DNA of 60,009 nt from Syntrophorhabdales bacterium (GTDB taxonomy: Bacteria; Desulfobacterota; Syntrophorhabdia; Syntrophorhabdales; WCHB1-27): positions 1-60,009 of the forward strand of contig DATKNH010000112.1 in NCBI GenBank assembly GCA_035541455.1, read 5' to 3'. This document shows, piece by piece, positions 16,880 to 44,886 of this stretch. The notes under the pieces are model-generated. The model had not been told where the DNA came from. It did not search any database and saw nothing but the letters and a program-made list of their open reading frames with translations. A program made the position numbers and the translations under genes. Each line of letters opens with the position of its first letter. Position 1 is the stretch's first letter.

Positions 16880-18073
16880 TCAATTCCGGACCGCGAATGC
16901 CCTGCCGAAGGTATCAGTTGCTTTCAATGCGTTAAAGATCTCCCGGTCGTCATAGAATCGGCCATCTTTGTCACGCTCCCTGCGCGCCCCTGCCATGGAC
17001 TGAATGAGCAAACTTTTCGACGCAGCGTCAGCCACCTTCGCGAGAGCTTCGTCGCTGGCGTCACTCAGGCCCAGCTCTTCAAAGGTGGTCGGCAATCCAA
17101 CTGACCTGCAGAACTCAAAAATATTTTCCAGAAATTGAGGGCTTCTTCCCTCGAGCATGAGCTGCACCAACGTGCCAAACCCCGACTGCTCGCCGTGAAA
17201 GGGATGGCGCTCGAAAGATTCCGGGATATGGTCAAAGCCATGCGCCACTGCATGAGCCGCGGACAAACCGCAGTTCTCAAACCCGAGACCGCTCAAAAGG
17301 ACGGTCGCTTCGACCACAGCCTCGACGCCTGGTCCGGGTATGCCGGTCTCGACCTCTTTTTTGGCCTGGAGGCCAAACTCGAGGAGGATATCGAGGCAAA
17401 GTTTCGCCAGCGCTCTGCCGGTAATCGTACTCAACGCGCGCGTACCTATGGACGGACTGGCGGTCCTGTAATTCATGTCAGCTTCGAAGTGTGTATTGAG
17501 CGCATCTCCCATGCCGGCGACAAAGAGGCGGATGGGCGATTTGGCGATCACAGCCGTATCCACAAAGACCATAGTGGGGTTGACCGGGAATTTGAGGAGA
17601 GCTTCCACAGTGCCTTTGTCAGAATAGACGAGCGCGGAAGCCGATGTTGAGCCGTCAGTGGCCGCGACAGTGGGAACGTTGATGCAGGCAACACCGGCTC
17701 CGAACCTGGGTATGAATTCAGGCGGAACTTTCTGCACGTTTGTCGCAGGCCCCGTGGCAGCGGCACGGCCGGTGTCGATGGTCTTTCCTCCTCCGCAATT
17801 CATGATCGCGTCATGACCTCCCGCGACGCATGCATTCTTTACCCGTTCGATCTCCGCGAAATTACATTGACCGTTGAATTGGGTGAGGGCATACCTGATC
17901 TTTTTCTCCCGGAGCGGTTTGGCGAGCACGGGTTCCACTATCTTTCTTGCGCTCGGTGAAGCCAGGATCAACGGATTCTTAATGCCGAGCATTTCCAGCT
18001 GTTCGCCCATCTCCAGCAGGGCACCGGGGCCTTGCACGTATCTGAGGGGACTTCTCAAAACCTTGAGCGCCAT
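16880..18073 (-). CDS. Iron/zinc-dependent alcohol dehydrogenase family, glycerol dehydrogenase-like
   Basis: 397 residues from the ATG at 18073, with GGGAGG 8 nt upstream. It has the Fe-ADH/GldA pattern: GGGKTIDTGRAAA nucleotide loop, PTVAATDGSTSAS, GMGDALNTHFEA (metal Asp), AAHAVAHGF and HPFHGEQSGFGT (metal His residues). Such enzymes interconvert alcohols or polyols with ketones using NAD+. It is the last gene of the molybdenum-hydroxylase operon, 76 bp after a MoaD-like gene. The inferred role is a dehydrogenase step on the same substrate as the Mo enzyme; which alcohol is unknown. Confidence 0.88.
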   Translation of the reverse strand: MALKVLRSPLRYVQGPGALLEMGEQLEMLGIKNPLILASPSARKIVEPVLAKPLREKKIRYALTQFNGQCNFAEIERVKNACVAGGHDAIMNCGGGKTIDTGRAAATGPATNVQKVPPEFIPRFGAGVACINVPTVAATDGSTSASALVYSDKGTVEALLKFPVNPTMVFVDTAVIAKSPIRLFVAGMGDALNTHFEADMNYRTASPSIGTRALSTITGRALAKLCLDILLEFGLQAKKEVETGIPGPGVEAVVEATVLLSGLGFENCGLSAAHAVAHGFDHIPESFERHPFHGEQSGFGTLVQLMLEGRSPQFLENIFEFCRSVGLPTTFEELGLSDASDEALAKVADAASKSLLIQSMAGARRERDKDGRFYDDREIFNALKATDTFGRAFAVRN

Positions 18074-18149
18074 TATGTAAACCTCCCAATTTTTGCGGTG
18101 GATGATGACAGGCACGGACGGTCCGCCCGAGCGCAGCCGTCTGTGTTCT

Positions 18150-18389
18150 CTACCCTCCTGAGAAAGGCGAATAGAGGGCGACCTCATCCCCGTCCTTGAG
18201 GTAATATGCAGACTCTATGGTTCGTCCGTTAACGGTTATGATGTAGTTCAAGCCCTCCGTCAACTTCAACTCCTCGACCAATTGCTGGACCGTTTTGCCC
18301 TCGTTCACTCTTTTTTTCAAGGAGAATCTGCCCTTCGCCTCTTGCGAATGATATGCAACATTCCCCCAAAGCTTAATTTCTATGTCCAC
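18150..18389 (-). CDS. MoaD/ThiS-family ubiquitin-like sulfur carrier protein
   Basis: 79 residues, GTG start with only a weak upstream site. The beta-grasp sequence ends in the signature Gly-Gly (YSPFSGG), the C-terminus that is thiocarboxylated to donate sulfur. In MoaD this sulfur builds the dithiolene of molybdopterin; in related proteins it feeds other sulfur pathways. Its position inside the molybdenum-hydroxylase operon favours a cofactor-supply role for that enzyme, which remains inference. Confidence 0.82.
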   Translation of the reverse strand: MDIEIKLWGNVAYHSQEAKGRFSLKKRVNEGKTVQQLVEELKLTEGLNYIITVNGRTIESAYYLKDGDEVALYSPFSGG

Positions 18390-18460
18390 GTTACTTTTTC
18401 ATGCGCCAGCGTCAGCACGGTACGCGGCGAACCGACAGACTTTTCTTCTACATGTGCTGG

Positions 18461-18588
18461 TGTCAATTTGTATTCAAGATGGAGACCGGGGCGACCCGAG
18501 GCCTGGGCTATGCAGGCGTACCTCGCGATACGTCCAAGTAGAACAGGCCGAAGGGCAATGAAGGTGTACGCTTGAAGACAAATTGACA
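18461..18588. repeat. Inverted-repeat element, copy 1 (related to the copy at 39954)
   Basis: A 128-bp segment is bounded by 18-bp inverted repeats (TGTCAATTTGTATTCAAG at 18461-18478 and its complement at 18571-18588, one mismatch). Its ends match the second copy at 14 of 18 positions, and the interiors share GGCGACC, an AGGCGTAC block and a GGC...GAAG.TGTA block. It sits directly after the stop codon of the FAD-binding subunit gene, inside the operon. It has no transposase and looks like a MITE-like or structured-RNA intergenic repeat. Confidence 0.72.
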
Positions 18589-19557
18589 TTAGATGCAGCC
18601 GAGGATGGCGCGTTTAACCATCGTCTTCGCTATCTGCACCATATAGCCATTGTACGGCATGGGTTTTGCCCCTGAGACCGCCGCTGCCCCTGCGGCTTCC
18701 GCGCTGGTATCGCTTATCTCTTTTCCCGTGATCGCTTCCTCAGCCGCTCTCGCCCGAATCGGGATAACGTAGACGGCATTGAGACAGATCCGCGCGGCTG
18801 TGACTTTCTTTTCTGAGACCGCTGCCATCGCCGCGCAATTCACGATAGGGAAGTCGATGGCCTTGCGAAGCGCAAACTTGATGAATGCGCTTTTTCCGAA
18901 AGGCCTGGGTATTACTACTTCCGTGACAATCTCGTCATCATGGAGAACGGTTGTCCTGGTCACATCCACTTGAAAGAAATCTTCTGCTTTGATCACGCGA
19001 TGCGATGTCTGCAGTGAGGCATCCAGCGCAATCAATGCAGGGGCTGTATCGCTGGGATGGACCGCGTAGCAGCCTCCTTCGACGCTGCCGCCGAAGATGG
19101 AGTGATAGCGGTTATCACCATCGATGGCATAGCACTTCCCACCTCCTTTTCTGAGGCAGGGGAAGCGGTTATTCTGATTGCGGTAATACCAGCATCGTAT
19201 ATCCTGGCAGATGTTGCCGCCGATAGTCCCCATCTCTCTCAGGTGGGTAGAAGCGGTTCTACGGGCTGCCTCTGCCAGGGCCGGGAACAGGTCGCGTACC
19301 CTCCTGTCAGTGGCGATATCCTCCAGTCGCGTCAGTGCGCCTATACGAAGAGCGCCACCCTCTTCTTCGATAAAATCGAGACCGGCTATGGTTTTGATAT
19401 TGACCAGGGCCTCAGGGTAAGAGGGCAGAATCTCGTCTTTCATTTTGCCGAGAAGATCTGTGCCGCCTGCAATCACGGCTGCTCTTTTGCCGTAGCGCTG
19501 CAAAACGGCGACTGCCTCATCCACGCTCCTCGCGTTGACGTGCGCAAAGTTCTTCAT
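18589..19557 (-). CDS. FAD-binding subunit of a molybdenum hydroxylase (CoxM/HcrB-like, Cys-rich)
   Basis: 322 residues. It binds FAD through AGGTDLLGKMK near the N-terminus and TIGGNICQD, as in CoxM and xanthine dehydrogenase middle domains. A Cys-rich insertion (RCWYYRNQ...PCLRKGGGKC...GGCYAVHPSDTAPAL) places four cysteines with spacing x11, x7 and x20. In the 4-hydroxybenzoyl-CoA reductase beta subunit the equivalent cysteines hold an extra [4Fe-4S] cluster (spacing x15, x7, x8). A fourth cluster would widen the redox span of the complex. It starts 10 bp after the Mo-subunit gene, with GAGGGGAAGAAC before the ATG. Confidence 0.9.
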   Translation of the reverse strand: MKNFAHVNARSVDEAVAVLQRYGKRAAVIAGGTDLLGKMKDEILPSYPEALVNIKTIAGLDFIEEEGGALRIGALTRLEDIATDRRVRDLFPALAEAARRTASTHLREMGTIGGNICQDIRCWYYRNQNNRFPCLRKGGGKCYAIDGDNRYHSIFGGSVEGGCYAVHPSDTAPALIALDASLQTSHRVIKAEDFFQVDVTRTTVLHDDEIVTEVVIPRPFGKSAFIKFALRKAIDFPIVNCAAMAAVSEKKVTAARICLNAVYVIPIRARAAEEAITGKEISDTSAEAAGAAAVSGAKPMPYNGYMVQIAKTMVKRAILGCI

Positions 19558-19567
19558 GTTCTTCCCC

Positions 19568-22006
19568 TCATATCTTGCCCAGGGCTCTCAGTACCCTGTC
19601 CGGAGTAGCAGGCAGGTCGACCCAGGCACCGACGGCGTTGTGCACAGCCGCGTAGAAAGCCGCCGGCACCACGGTGGCAACGTCTTCGCCGATGCCCACA
19701 GAGCCATACGGGCCGTAGCCCATTCCCGTCTCAATGACAATCGTGTCGATGGGCCCGCAGTCAAGCATGGTGTTGATCTTGTAGTCGATGAGGTTGCCAT
19801 TCAACACCACACCCGTCGCAGGGCAGTAGATCGTGTCCTCTGTGCGTGACCGGCTCACGCCCATCACAGAACCGCCGTACTGCTGGCCTTCTACTGCATC
19901 AGGATTGACAGCCTTGCCCACGTCATTCGCGTTCGCAACCCTGGTCACTTCTATCTCTCCTGTCTCAGGATCAACCTCGACCTCAACAAAATGCGCCTGC
20001 CTGACAAATATTGGTCTTGGCCCCGGCGTTCCCATGAAAGCGCCCTGCTGATTCTGCCATCCCCACGCAAAGAGCGGCTCGGTGGAGCCAATGTCCATCT
20101 TGCCCATGAAAAAAGCGGGACGGACCAGCTCCGCCATGGTCATCTTCCGGGACGGGTCTTTCTTCACATAAACGACGCTCTTCTTGATATCCAGGTCCTC
20201 AGGTTTACAATCGGGAAAAGGCGGGTAATAGCCCATATCGGCCCGCTCCGGCACTCTGGGTGTCGTGGCGATCTGAAGGATCTTCTGTTTGAGCTGCCTC
20301 GCCGCATTCCGGATGGCATAGCCATTGACCGTCAGATTGGTGGACGAATCGGGAGTCATCGTTGTGAAGCCGGCTTCTTCAAACTGTCGGTAGTGCACAT
20401 CTTCGTAGCGAAACCCCAGCTCGTCCGCAGCAATCTGACAATAGGCTGTTTCAGCAGCACACCCGTTGTCACAGCGCTGGGCGAGAATGCGAGCCGACCC
20501 ATCATCCCGTTCTATCCTCATCCCTATGGCTCCGGCGCCGGCCGAATCACTCCATTCGTGCGTAAACGTGAAACCTATGCCGTGGAGCCTGCCATTAGGG
20601 AGTTTCTTCTTTCCCGGCAGGTGCCATTTTTTCTCCCACTGGATCGCCTTCTTCCCCGCCTCGATGCACTCTGCGAGGCTGTCTCTGTTTTTAAAGCCAT
20701 GGGCCCGCTTCACATCGGCGAGTTCGGCCATGGGGCGTCCCTCGGCACCATCGTTCCGGAACGCCACGATCGTCGGATCCATTTCGAGGGCCTCGGCTAC
20801 GTGGCTCAACACAGCGCCCAGACAGAGGGCGTTCATATTCTGCTCGCATCTGAAGGCAGATCCCGGCATGATGTTGAGCACCGCGCCATTTGATTCCTGC
20901 AGCAGATGCTGCACCCTGGTGTTTTCCACGAAATGGCCCAGATGCGCAAATCCTTTTCTGCCGAACCATGATGTTGCGGCAACCGCGCATATTGTCCCGT
21001 CGTTTTTAAAGCCGACCTTCACCTGGTACCGGGCATTATCCATGCCGGCACCGCAAAAGTCTTCTCTTCTTGTGAACTGCCATTTGACAGGCTTTCCCGT
21101 TCTCCTCGAGAGAATGCCGGCGATGATGTTCGGCTGCATATTGAGCGCCATCTGCGACCAACCGCCGAAGCTTCCACCCTGGAACAGACAATGGAGCGTT
21201 ACCTGGCTGACCGGCAACTTAAAATAGTGAGCTATCTGACGCTTCGAGAGATGAGGACGTTGATGCTTGAGCCACAGCTCGGGGTACTCCCCGTTCCACC
21301 TGAACAGGCCATTCGGCCGCTCCGGGCCGACCCAGTTTTCCTTCTCTTTTCTCATCCTCCATTCGATGATTCTGTCAGCTTCTTTGAATCCTGCATCGGG
21401 GTTACCCCATATCATGGTGGCCTGCCGCTGCTGCGCAGGGAGGACAAAGTTTCCATCGGGCCATGATTCAGGGTTGCTCAACGGGGCTCCCTGTTTCAGC
21501 GCCTCTTCCTGATCCAGATTAAAAGGGCGTTCTTCCCAGTCGATCTCCACCAGCTTCAGTGCTTCGTTTGCGATATCCTCCGTATCGGCCGCAACGGCAA
21601 CACCCATGGGCATGCCCTGCCAGTAGCCGACCCGGTTGAGTACGGGTTCGTGCCCTTCGGTTCCTCCTCCGAAATGACCGCTTACATCCGCCCTCTCCGG
21701 CAGCTCCGGATCATCATACCTGAGGAGAGCTCTTACGCCTTTCAATCCTGCTGCCTTGTCTGTATCCATGCGCTTTATGCGGGCATGAGGATAGGGGCAG
21801 GTAAGAATGCGCAACCACAATTGGCCCGGCAGGCGCACATCCGCCGTGTAGAGAGCATAGCCCGTCGCCTTCTCGTAGCCGTCTTTTCGCCGGATACCGC
21901 GTCGGCCGATCGCCTCATACTCTTTCAGGGGGTGCTTGTCGGCCCTCAGCGCGTGCTCAGGCGCTATGATTCTTTCCTTGTCATTTCTGCGCGGCTTACT
22001 TTTCAT
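19568..22006 (-). CDS. Molybdopterin-binding catalytic subunit of a molybdenum hydroxylase (CoxL/HcrA-like)
   Basis: About 812 residues from the ATG at 22006, which overlaps the end of the [2Fe-2S] subunit gene (ATGAAAAGTAA), indicating translational coupling. It has the aldehyde oxidase/xanthine dehydrogenase domain order: an a/b hammerhead opening (ATGYALYTADVRLPG), the Mo-cofactor loop FQGGSFGGWSQM, a substrate-channel segment, and the C-terminal GIGE catalytic glutamate followed by DLPATPDRVLRAL. It hydroxylates or dehydroxylates an aromatic, N-heteroaromatic or CoA-activated carbonyl compound. The actual substrate cannot be deduced. It is a central member of the 16.9-24.9 kb operon. Confidence 0.93.
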   Translation of the reverse strand: MKSKPRRNDKERIIAPEHALRADKHPLKEYEAIGRRGIRRKDGYEKATGYALYTADVRLPGQLWLRILTCPYPHARIKRMDTDKAAGLKGVRALLRYDDPELPERADVSGHFGGGTEGHEPVLNRVGYWQGMPMGVAVAADTEDIANEALKLVEIDWEERPFNLDQEEALKQGAPLSNPESWPDGNFVLPAQQRQATMIWGNPDAGFKEADRIIEWRMRKEKENWVGPERPNGLFRWNGEYPELWLKHQRPHLSKRQIAHYFKLPVSQVTLHCLFQGGSFGGWSQMALNMQPNIIAGILSRRTGKPVKWQFTRREDFCGAGMDNARYQVKVGFKNDGTICAVAATSWFGRKGFAHLGHFVENTRVQHLLQESNGAVLNIMPGSAFRCEQNMNALCLGAVLSHVAEALEMDPTIVAFRNDGAEGRPMAELADVKRAHGFKNRDSLAECIEAGKKAIQWEKKWHLPGKKKLPNGRLHGIGFTFTHEWSDSAGAGAIGMRIERDDGSARILAQRCDNGCAAETAYCQIAADELGFRYEDVHYRQFEEAGFTTMTPDSSTNLTVNGYAIRNAARQLKQKILQIATTPRVPERADMGYYPPFPDCKPEDLDIKKSVVYVKKDPSRKMTMAELVRPAFFMGKMDIGSTEPLFAWGWQNQQGAFMGTPGPRPIFVRQAHFVEVEVDPETGEIEVTRVANANDVGKAVNPDAVEGQQYGGSVMGVSRSRTEDTIYCPATGVVLNGNLIDYKINTMLDCGPIDTIVIETGMGYGPYGSVGIGEDVATVVPAAFYAAVHNAVGAWVDLPATPDRVLRALGKI

Positions 22007-22592
22007 GGACCGCACCATCCGCCCTGCGGCTCTCCCGCAGGAGCTCCGCCGCTTCAGCGACGGCTTTCGGGTGCTGCGGATACGTGCCGCAACGGCACAG
22101 ATTGCCGGAAAGAGCCTCCCGTATCTCATCCTCAGTCGGATCAGGATTTCTGTCCAGCAGCGCTTTTGCAGTGACCACAAATCCGGGCGTGCAGTAACCA
22201 CACTGCATGCAGTGATGCTTGACATACGTCTCGATGAGAGGGTGCTTCGCAGCCGCAATACCTTCGGCAGTTTCCACGCTCGCGCCATCGCACTCTATTG
22301 CCAGTGTCATACAGGAGAGCACGGGCCTTCCATTCATGATCACCGTGCATGAGCCGCACGCGCCTCGGTCGCAGAACATCTTCACCCCGGTCAGTCCCAG
22401 CGTATCGTGAATCACCGAATAGAGGGTCACATTAGGCTCTACGCTAAGCTCGTACTTTGCGCCATTGACGTTGAGGCCGATCAGTCCTTCGGGTCGGGGC
22501 AATGGCTCTGCGCCATGGCCGGTGACAATATGGGACTTCAGTTCATCGACGGTCTCGAAGCCCGTTCGGCAATAGGGACAAATGAATTGCAT
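21996..22592 (-). CDS. [2Fe-2S] subunit of a molybdenum hydroxylase with an N-terminal C2H2 zinc finger
   Basis: 198 residues. Residues 1-32 form a classic C-x2-C-x12-H-x4-H finger (CPYCRTGF...HIVTGH). The rest is a standard CoxS/HcrC ferredoxin: the plant-type cluster at CDRGACGSCTVIMNGRPVLSC, then the second cluster in the four-helix part (CMQCGYCTPGFV...GNLCRCGTYP). Canonical subunits are about 155-165 residues, so the finger is an addition of about 35. AGGAGG precedes the ATG. The extra finger could bind DNA/RNA or a partner protein, or stabilise the complex; this is unknown. Confidence 0.9.
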   Translation of the reverse strand: MQFICPYCRTGFETVDELKSHIVTGHGAEPLPRPEGLIGLNVNGAKYELSVEPNVTLYSVIHDTLGLTGVKMFCDRGACGSCTVIMNGRPVLSCMTLAIECDGASVETAEGIAAAKHPLIETYVKHHCMQCGYCTPGFVVTAKALLDRNPDPTEDEIREALSGNLCRCGTYPQHPKAVAEAAELLRESRRADGAVHEK

Positions 22593-22600
22593 ACCTCCTC

Positions 22601-23812
22601 CTATCTCAGGCGGCGCAGAAAGATCGATTGTTTTATACGCGTCTCATAATCGTTCCTGAAGTACTTCAGGGTGTCGAGCACCGGAACGGGGGCTGCCTGT
22701 CCGAGGCCGCACAGCGACGAATCCATCATCACTGCGGAGAGTTCCTCCAGTGTGTTGATATCTTCCTCGACTCCATCGCCATTCTTGAGTCTCTTCAGAA
22801 CCTCGAGCATCACCCCCGTACCTTCACGACAGGGCGTGCATTCGCCACAAGACTCATCGTTCAGGAACTCCATGCTGCGATAGACAAAATCGATTACATC
22901 TCTGGTGCGGTTTAAAACGGTGACCGCACCCGAGCCCAGGACGGTCTCGTATGAAAGAGGTGTAGTCGTCATCGAACCCGGGACGATGCCGCCGGTAGCG
23001 CCACCGATCTGCACCAGTTTCACATCTTCAGCGCCGGCAAGCGCCAGCAGGTCGGAAAGCGTGCTCCCCAGCGCAAGCTCATACACGCCAGGCCGCTTCA
23101 CATCGCCACTCACTGAAAATACTTTTGTGCCTGTGCTCTGGGCAGTGCCTATATTGGAAAACCATGCAGCACCCCTCATGATAATACGGGGAATATTCAT
23201 CAGCGTCTCGACGTTGTTGACGATGGTCGGCTGACCGAACAGACCGCTTTCCGGCGGATAAGGAGGACGAAACCGGGCCTCTCCTCTTTTACCCTCGATG
23301 GAATTCATCAAGGCTGATTCTTCCCCGCATACGTAAGCGCCGGCGCCTTCACGTATCTCGATTGGAATATCAATAAGCCCTTCCACGGCTGCTTGGCCGA
23401 TAGCTTCTTTAAGACCGTCCAGAAGAAAACGGTACTCTCCGCGAACATAGACATACGCCTTGGCTGCCCCTATGGCGCAGGCAGCGATGGCCAGGCCCTC
23501 GAGAAAGGAGTAAGGATCGTGTTGGATGATGTAGCGATCTTTGAACGTCCCTACCTCACCCTCATCCGCATTGCAGATCACGAATTTCTCACTGCCCGAC
23601 GCTGCCCGAGCAGATTCCCATTTCACGCCGCAGGGAAAACCTGCCCCTCCTCTTCCCCTTAGCCCCGATGACTTGATCTCTGCAATGACCGCGGCGGGTC
23701 CCATGTCGCGGGCCTTCTTGAGGGCCAGATAGCCGCCTCTCTGCAGGTACGTCTCTATGTTACGGGGGTCTATGGTTCCGCAGAGCTCCAGGACAATTCG
23801 CCTCTCCGGCAT
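22601..23812 (-). CDS. NADH-binding NuoF/HydB-like flavoprotein subunit
   Basis: 403 residues. Marks are the FMN/NADH site segments GLRGRGGAGFPCGVKWE, CNADEGEVGTFKDR, GAGAYVCGEESALMNSIEGK and the C-terminal [4Fe-4S] site ESCGECTPCREG...CGLGQAAP. Related NuoF, HydB and formate-dehydrogenase beta subunits oxidise NADH or reduce NAD+ through FMN and the cluster. The C-terminal ferredoxin tail of hydrogenase-associated HydB is absent. It lies between the NuoG/NuoE fusion and the Mo-hydroxylase subunits, with GGGAG 8 nt before its ATG. The inferred role is linking the Mo enzyme to the NAD pool. Confidence 0.92.
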   Translation of the reverse strand: MPERRIVLELCGTIDPRNIETYLQRGGYLALKKARDMGPAAVIAEIKSSGLRGRGGAGFPCGVKWESARAASGSEKFVICNADEGEVGTFKDRYIIQHDPYSFLEGLAIAACAIGAAKAYVYVRGEYRFLLDGLKEAIGQAAVEGLIDIPIEIREGAGAYVCGEESALMNSIEGKRGEARFRPPYPPESGLFGQPTIVNNVETLMNIPRIIMRGAAWFSNIGTAQSTGTKVFSVSGDVKRPGVYELALGSTLSDLLALAGAEDVKLVQIGGATGGIVPGSMTTTPLSYETVLGSGAVTVLNRTRDVIDFVYRSMEFLNDESCGECTPCREGTGVMLEVLKRLKNGDGVEEDINTLEELSAVMMDSSLCGLGQAAPVPVLDTLKYFRNDYETRIKQSIFLRRLR

Positions 23813-23824
23813 AATACAATCTCC

Positions 23825-24937
23825 CTATGCTTCCCGATGCTGCTTCAGTATGCCGGCGATCTTCTCCGGCGTGAGGTTACCGTGCACTGTCTCGTCTATC
23901 AGCATGGCCGGCGCCTTATCGCAGGCACCAATGCAATTTGTCAGTTCGAAAGAGAAGCATCCGTCGACCGTTGTCTCGCCCGGTCCTATGCCGATTGCAT
24001 TCTTCACGCTCTCGATGATCACGGGCGCTTCCTTGAGGTAGCACGGCAGACTTCTGCATATCCTGATCACGTGCTTTCCCAGCGGCTTTCTCGCGATGAA
24101 GGAGTAAAAAGTTGCAACGCCGTAAACCTCACTCAGGGGAACGTTAAGCTCGGCCGCAATCTCCGCCATCGAATCCTCCGAGACGTAGCCGGCGCTACCC
24201 TGGCTCTCCTTGAGCAGGTCAAGGAGCTTTGCCCTGGTTCCATTAACCGAGAAACAGCTGGCGGAAGGTTTTGCTTTGAGCTTCTCTTTTGGCCTCTTAA
24301 CGCCTTCGGGCCACATCAGTGCATTGGTCGGGCAGTACTCTATGCATATGCCGCAATCCCTGCATACTTCCTTGTCGAGAGTCACATCGCAGTCGACGAC
24401 GACCTTTGAATGAGAACCGCGGTACGCCATGCTGTAGATTCTTTGGCAAGCCACCTCATCGCAGGCTCTTATACACTTGCGGCAAAGAATACATTTGGAC
24501 ATGTCCCTGTACACGTAAGGATTCTGCTCTTCAGCTGCATAGAGGCGCGGTTTCTTGACGTGAAAGCGGGGAGGACCCGCCTCCAGGTCGGAAGCAAGCT
24601 TGTGCAGGCCGCATTCCCTCGCCTCCAGATCTGTGACACACGTGCCCGTATGTCCGGCAAGAAGAAGCTCTACCGTTGCCAGGCGAGCGTTGCGCACCCT
24701 GGCGGAATTTGTTGTGACGATCATGCCGTCTGCAACAGGCGTGTGACAGGAGCCGACCAGGGCGCGGGAGCCTTCGACCTCTACGACGCAGATGCGGCAG
24801 TTACCGGAGGGCTTGATCCCCTCCTGATGGCAGAGTCTTGGAATGCTTATGCCTGCAGACTCCGCGGCCTCAAGAATCGTGGTGCCCTCAGGCGCGCTCA
24901 CTTTCACGCCGTCAACCGTGATATGCAGATCGTTCAT
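23825..24937 (-). CDS. Fused NuoG N-terminal ferredoxin/iron-sulfur domain and NuoE-like thioredoxin domain
   Basis: 370 residues from the ATG at 24937, which has GAGG 6 nt upstream; a start at 24955 is less supported. Domains in order: plant-type [2Fe-2S] (CHQEG...GNCRICVVEV...GSC, 1-85), a His/Cys motif (GHTGTCVTDLEARECGLHKLA), two [4Fe-4S] ferredoxin motifs (CILCRKCIRAC and CRDCGICIEYCPT, about 145-215), then a NuoE/HoxE thioredoxin-fold domain (about 225-370). Its [2Fe-2S] cysteines are CRSLPC and CIGAC. NuoE is normally a separate ~160-residue subunit. The gene is first in the operon, so it probably forms the NADH-entry module with the NuoF-like subunit. Confidence 0.9.
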   Translation of the reverse strand: MNDLHITVDGVKVSAPEGTTILEAAESAGISIPRLCHQEGIKPSGNCRICVVEVEGSRALVGSCHTPVADGMIVTTNSARVRNARLATVELLLAGHTGTCVTDLEARECGLHKLASDLEAGPPRFHVKKPRLYAAEEQNPYVYRDMSKCILCRKCIRACDEVACQRIYSMAYRGSHSKVVVDCDVTLDKEVCRDCGICIEYCPTNALMWPEGVKRPKEKLKAKPSASCFSVNGTRAKLLDLLKESQGSAGYVSEDSMAEIAAELNVPLSEVYGVATFYSFIARKPLGKHVIRICRSLPCYLKEAPVIIESVKNAIGIGPGETTVDGCFSFELTNCIGACDKAPAMLIDETVHGNLTPEKIAGILKQHREA

Positions 24938-44812: not shown

Positions 44813-44886
44813 TGGCGGTGCAGGGAGTCGAACCCCGGACACTGCGGATATGAGCCGCATGCTCTAACCAACTGAGCTACACCGCC
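44813..44886 (-). tRNA. tRNA-Met (anticodon CAT)
   Basis: 74 nt read on the - strand: GGCGGTG acceptor arm, TAGCTCAGTTGGTTAGAGC D-arm, CTCATAT anticodon loop (CAT) on a GCGG/CCGC-type stem, a GTTCGACTC T-loop and a matching CACCGCC 3' strand with discriminator A. The sequence resembles elongator Met tRNAs. CAT anticodons can also belong to tRNA-Ile2, so the assignment is likely but not absolute. The CCA end is not encoded. Confidence 0.93.

Follow-up and report, generated by a model that had tools for sequence, protein, structure and literature searches.

Five adjacent genes, coding for a xanthine-oxidase-family molybdenum hydroxylase and for subunits of a complex-I-like NADH module, probably specify a single soluble complex that links the hydroxylase to NAD(H); this assessment covers the complex as such, whichever way its electrons flow. 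The genes lie in a window of 60,009 nt that constitutes one complete contig (C112) of genome G000 (3.9 Mb in 173 contigs, an estimated 97% complete), from an uncultured anaerobe, whose class holds 46 genomes, all of one order.

An earlier note on this DNA had described seven co-oriented, tightly spaced genes. All seven were found on the minus strand between positions 16880 and 24937, and every family named is backed by domain matches (Table 1), with Pfam E-values of 1e-43 for Complex1_51K, 8e-45 for 2Fe-2S_thioredx, 3e-39 for FAD_binding_5, 1e-46 for MoCoBD_2, 5e-28 for Fer2_2, 9e-23 for Fe-ADH and 3e-10 for ThiS. The order of transcription is NuoG-NuoE, NuoF, 2Fe-2S, Mo, FAD, MoaD-like, GldA-like. 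Tight spacing holds for the first five genes, which are 12 bp (NuoG-NuoE to NuoF), 8 bp (NuoF to 2Fe-2S) and 10 bp (Mo to FAD) apart or overlap by 11 bp (2Fe-2S and Mo), but not for the MoaD and GldA genes, which follow gaps of 199 and 76 bp, respectively. The GldA reading frame stays open upstream of 18073, where homology begins, and the metal-ligand segments MGDAL, AHAVAHGF and HPFHGE are kept. Promoter- and terminator-like sites in the operon region were no commoner than in shuffled sequence. Rfam detected no riboswitch or Moco-regulated leader, its sole match being a tRNA at 44813-44886.

Table 1. Features of the seven-gene region (positions in the 60,009-nt window).
Feature	Position	Strand	Evidence
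NuoG(N-terminal)-NuoE fusion, 370 aa	23825..24937	-	domains, motifs
NuoF-like FMN/NADH subunit, 403 aa	22601..23812	-	domains, residues
[2Fe-2S]2 small subunit of Mo enzyme, 198 aa, N-terminal extension	21996..22592	-	
C2H2 zinc-finger-like motif CPYC...H...H, residues 5-26 of 2Fe-2S subunit	22515..22580	-	
Mo-cofactor (catalytic) subunit, xanthine oxidase family, 812 aa	19568..22006	-	Q249, R386, E774 conserved
RCEQ loop of Mo subunit, residues 386-389, invariant	20840..20851	-	
FAD subunit, 322 aa	18589..19557	-	
Cys-rich loop in FAD subunit (C122, C134, C142, C163), PaoB-like spacing	19069..19194	-	
MoaD/ThiS-like sulfur carrier, 79 aa, GG at C-terminus	18150..18389	-	
GldA-like metal-dependent alcohol dehydrogenase, 397 aa	16880..18073	-	

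Judging from Pfam and motif checks, the operon is predicted to encode a full electron-transfer chain. The NuoG part of the fusion has a 2Fe-2S domain (Fer2_4) and two 4Fe-4S motifs, CILCRKCIRAC and CRDCGICIEYC, and the NuoE part a thioredoxin-like 2Fe-2S domain. NuoF carries the features for FMN and a 4Fe-4S cluster, the small subunit those for two 2Fe-2S clusters, and the large subunit the Mo cofactor domains; the FAD subunit combines an FAD domain with a four-Cys loop that is probably a 4Fe-4S site. In the N5-like His/Cys motif of the NuoG part, HTGTCVTD, the second Cys is replaced by Asp (D103), as it is in all eight members in which the site is fully readable. In the physical complex that we infer, the FAD/4Fe-4S subunit of a cytoplasmic Mo hydroxylase would dock onto a NuoG-NuoE/NuoF diaphorase. 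Electrons would then pass between Mo, two 2Fe-2S clusters, FAD/4Fe-4S, the NuoG-type clusters, the FMN of NuoF and NAD(H), with no ferredoxin bifurcation.

Membership of the catalytic subunit in the xanthine oxidase family is shown by its two MoCoBD domains and its a/b hammerhead (Pfam E=1e-46, 2e-27 and 1e-15), and it is accompanied by the [2Fe-2S]2 and FAD subunits. Residues Q249, R386 and E774, placed by alignment with paralogs, are invariant in 13 aligned Mo subunits; we take the first two to be the active-site Gln and Arg, and E774 the conserved catalytic Glu near the C-terminus. AlphaFold puts the protein in the same family with modest confidence (pLDDT 66). Its best PDB match is the alpha subunit of 4-hydroxybenzoyl-CoA reductase (HBCR; 190 bits), followed by quinoline oxidoreductase. 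Identity with HBCR was considered and rejected: the alpha model (TIGR03194) gives 273-275 bits against a cut-off of 994.55, a score below that of most other Mo hydroxylases of G000. Another G000 protein (C28) passes this cut-off with 1125 bits; the Cys loop is absent from its FAD subunit. Similarly, the operon FAD subunit obtains 149 of the 404.55 bits set for the beta model (TIGR03195). The earlier note had called this subunit Cys-rich as in HBCR; the Cys-rich loop is indeed there, but its spacing better fits PaoB-type aldehyde oxidases. The 4Fe-4S ligands of HcrB are C122, C138, C146 and C155, and C146 aligns to a Tyr; the top PDB matches, 5y6q_B and PaoB, share the Cys spacing. The likeness of the Mo enzyme to HBCR is superficial.

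Every clade member covering the site has the RCEQ loop, with a Cys directly after the active-site Arg. This Cys led us to consider a Mo-Cu CO dehydrogenase site. The active-site loop of form I aerobic CO dehydrogenase (CoxL) is AYRCSFR; the Cys is at the same place and the remainder differs. A Cys directly after this Arg is also present, as RCVG or RCHG, in other Mo paralogs of G000 (L028, L029, L030, L020), and the candidate is not supported. Altogether, G000 encodes about 20 xanthine-oxidase-family Mo subunits. In one of the other enzymes (C138, L027:10634-12976), a whole GltD/NfnL-like module (Fer4_20 + Pyr_redox_2) sits at the Cys-rich loop of the FAD subunit; this insertion is a second, different NAD(P)H wiring of xanthine-oxidase-family enzymes. 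In a tree of Mo subunits, the NAD-linked sequences, those with Nuo genes, form one group (94/97) that is sister to a group of Tat-exported enzymes, the two together making up a 100/100 clade from which the other Mo hydroxylases of G000 are excluded.

The N-terminal extension of the 2Fe-2S subunit separates these enzymes further. The CPYC...H...H motif is present in 10 of 10 NAD-linked loci with an intact gene and in none of the 17 other 2Fe-2S subunits of G000; AlphaFold models the segment as strand-strand-helix (pLDDT about 87-95). NAD-linked members have no Tat signal, and the nearest relatives with a Tat signal (L093, L066, L100) have neither the zinc-finger-like motif nor NuoF/G. Because NAD(H) is cytoplasmic, this pattern fits a role of the Nuo module as working partner of the cytoplasmic forms. 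At L098 (5698-6420), a Tat-exported 2Fe-2S subunit keeps the zinc-finger-like motif; its Mo subunit is only 29% identical.

The MoaD and GldA genes are accessory and not part of the core, as they are missing beside several of the operons. Arrangements vary: MoaD followed by the contig end (G044), GldA then MoaD (G043), GldA, a ThiF/MoeB-like E1 and MoaD (G296), a MoaD-like gene with GldA far off (G091:C316) or a MoaD-like gene (G126:C45). A role in sulfuration or assembly of the cofactor is probable for MoaD, and the GldA-like enzyme may act on an alcohol or ketone of the same pathway. Common neighbours of the operons are genes for SDR dehydrogenases, LIV-type ABC importers, glycolate-oxidase-like proteins and 2-oxoacid oxidoreductases; in a single genome (G043), bamBCDE-like genes come after the operon, and their BamB-like product matches class II benzoyl-CoA reductase (4z3w) with E=7e-201. 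These neighbours suggest a role in breaking down aromatic or related organic acids, with no one substrate singled out. Separately, genes for isochorismatase-family hydrolases 62% identical to each other lie beside two Mo operons (L039:3128-3748 and L093:4432-5073), one NAD-linked and the other Tat-exported, a hint that the substrate may be an amide or contain nitrogen.

As to direction, oxidation of the substrate is favoured, with a chance that we put at about even: in catabolism, a (hetero)aromatic ring or an aldehyde carbon would be hydroxylated with oxygen from water, and NADH would form. We rank below it, as the main alternative though a rather unlikely one, the same complex working in reverse, in which NADH would drive the reductive removal of a hydroxyl group from a phenolic or aryl-CoA compound, as an electron sink or as a funnel into the benzoyl-CoA pathway; what is left falls to other arrangements. 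HBCR is the closest solved structure for the Mo subunit, Ucdh is a xanthine-oxidase-family dehydroxylase that runs on NADH (PMC12771579), and the bamBCDE-like genes of G043 would suit dehydroxylation as well as oxidation. Against the reductive direction, however, stand the low HBCR-alpha score, the Tat-exported relatives, which better fit a periplasmic oxidase, and the confinement of the bam linkage to one genome.

Among named relatives, those closest at the Mo subunit are MAG Chersky.21_67 ('Syntrophobacterales'; 89% identity) and bog_1155 ('Syntrophaceae'; 73%). One contig search recovered only the two nearest relatives. A search of 395 genomes of one phylum extended the set to six more genera, spread over six families, whose Mo subunits are 46-56% identical. 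The order of the core, NuoG/NuoE-NuoF-2Fe-2S-Mo-FAD, recurs exactly or nearly so in G044/L038, G043/L039 and L058-L064 and is rearranged in L095; NuoG and NuoE are separate genes in some relatives, and several carry frameshifts. Co-location of the five core genes, for which the earlier note had proposed a synteny check, is thus borne out in several families of the phylum. Wherever flanks are readable and the FAD gene is adjacent, NuoF and/or NuoG-NuoE lie beside the Mo subunit of the 46-56% relatives (G126:C69, G091:C316, G354, G112, G296, G327, G126:C45); at G126:C326, NuoG-E pieces lie downstream, and at G091:C58 and G285:C83 the contig ends before Nuo genes could show. Scanning viral contigs for NuoGE yielded nothing useful, and a plasmid scan gave only generic relatives, about 30% identical.

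It seems improbable to us that the Nuo genes serve a different cellular enzyme and share no more than regulation with the Mo hydroxylase. The NAD(H)-linked complex is predicted here from genes, whose co-location on MAG contigs can also reflect co-regulation, and two clade Mo paralogs have no Nuo genes. Yet in the reciprocal search for NuoF (E<=1e-128, the same 395 genomes), all eight loci found, in seven genomes, were beside this Mo subunit. The operon NuoF clade (100/100) is separate from the eight further NuoF copies in G000, and evolutionary distances correlate most strongly, among all pairs, between the FAD subunit and NuoF (r=0.83; Mo-NuoF, 0.42), a measure that is supportive only because co-inherited operons correlate somewhat anyway. 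Service to a different enzyme, which the earlier note had named as a reason to abandon the idea, was not encountered for the core genes. The soluble NADH-linked complex proposed there is upheld by the conserved five-gene core, the exclusive NuoF partnership and the FAD-NuoF distances, and gives up MoaD and GldA as core members. The two paralogs mentioned above (G000:C71, L019:8304-13772; G044:C336, L043) also lack 2Fe-2S and FAD genes and adjoin MoaD, SDR and LIV-type ABC importer genes. The G000 copy has, in addition, a DMSO-reductase-family enzyme next to it; its frame is broken near residue 315 and is open in G044.

Electrons from ferredoxin had been suggested as well. Losey et al. (PMC7311640) separate bifurcating NuoF-type subunits (extra Fe-S domains, GGPSG in SLBB and, close to the NADH site, Ala or Glu plus Met) from non-bifurcating ones (no GGPSG, and Thr/Ser plus Lys/Ser/Ala close to the NADH site); the placement in the operon NuoF of their criterion at T. 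maritima position 367 is uncertain. The operon NuoF has T89 and K91 at the diagnostic positions, GAYVCGEE, and GGATG in place of GGPSG, and neither an N-terminal thioredoxin-like 2Fe-2S nor a C-terminal 2x4Fe-4S domain was found on it. As an internal control, five NuoF paralogs of G000 carry the bifurcating residue pattern, with GAFVCGEE in place of GAYVCGEE. The Tyr presumably occupies the position of the Nqo1 NADH-site Tyr. Since the operon NuoF fits the published description of non-bifurcating NADH-dependent enzymes, coupling to ferredoxin appears unlikely, and this part of the earlier proposal is not sustained. An electron-bifurcating or -confurcating Mo enzyme linking substrate, NAD(H) and ferredoxin in the manner of HydABC or WorABC is the least probable arrangement of all: although the NuoF and NuoG segments score highest in the PDB with HydB and HydA of bifurcating hydrogenases, and the NuoG part has two 4Fe-4S motifs, NuoF lacks both extra domains and differs in its residues from the bifurcating-type paralogs.

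More tentatively, and with rather less than even confidence, we may be dealing with a xanthine-oxidase-family class defined by a constitutive non-bifurcating complex-I-type NADH module, with the zinc-finger-like extension as docking domain on the 2Fe-2S subunit, the RCEQ loop serving chemistry on a substrate new to the family, and the Nuo module lost with export in Tat-targeted relatives. The extension, the N5 Asp and the RCEQ loop offer handles for annotating genes labelled just 'xanthine dehydrogenase family'. If the proposed complex is real, anaerobes degrading plant-derived or aromatic matter would gain a way to hydroxylate or dehydroxylate substrates through NAD(H), independently of ferredoxin.

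No published description of a NuoG-NuoE/NuoF plus Mo hydroxylase assembly was found in the open-licence literature, the body of work searched. HcrABC of Thauera aromatica (1rm6) is likewise a three-subunit xanthine-oxidase-family enzyme with a Cys-rich FAD-subunit loop; the operon differs in a Mo subunit far under the HBCR-alpha cut-off, an unmatched C146 and PaoB-like Cys spacing, and HBCR receives electrons from ferredoxin with no Nuo module. PaoABC and the Methylobacillus aldehyde oxidase (5g5g, 5y6q) provide the best FAD-subunit matches, with the same four-Cys spacing; in contrast, PaoABC is periplasmic, has no NuoF/NuoGE, and its Mo subunit is just distantly related. Ucdh, the urolithin C dehydroxylase of Enterocloster bolteae, is a cytoplasmic, NADH-using member of the family (PMC12771579), described with three subunits and no reported complex-I-like module. 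A precedent is the WorABC module of tungsten oxidoreductases (PMC13328260): class IV enzymes (WorLSABC, 9mqx) have a complex-I-like module on a pterin oxidoreductase, and some WORs a ThiS-like gene nearby, but their catalytic subunit belongs to the AOR family and their module bifurcates, whereas here the family is that of xanthine oxidase and the module of the non-bifurcating type. FdsABG formate dehydrogenases and the Hyd1ABC [FeFe]-hydrogenases of S. wolfei share a soluble, non-bifurcating NuoE/NuoF/NuoG-type module on a catalytic subunit of a different enzyme family. Complex-I-type NADH modules are thus already known from hydrogenases, formate dehydrogenases and class IV WORs, and finding such a module as a conserved partner alongside xanthine-oxidase-family enzymes would carry this modular principle over to Mo hydroxylases.
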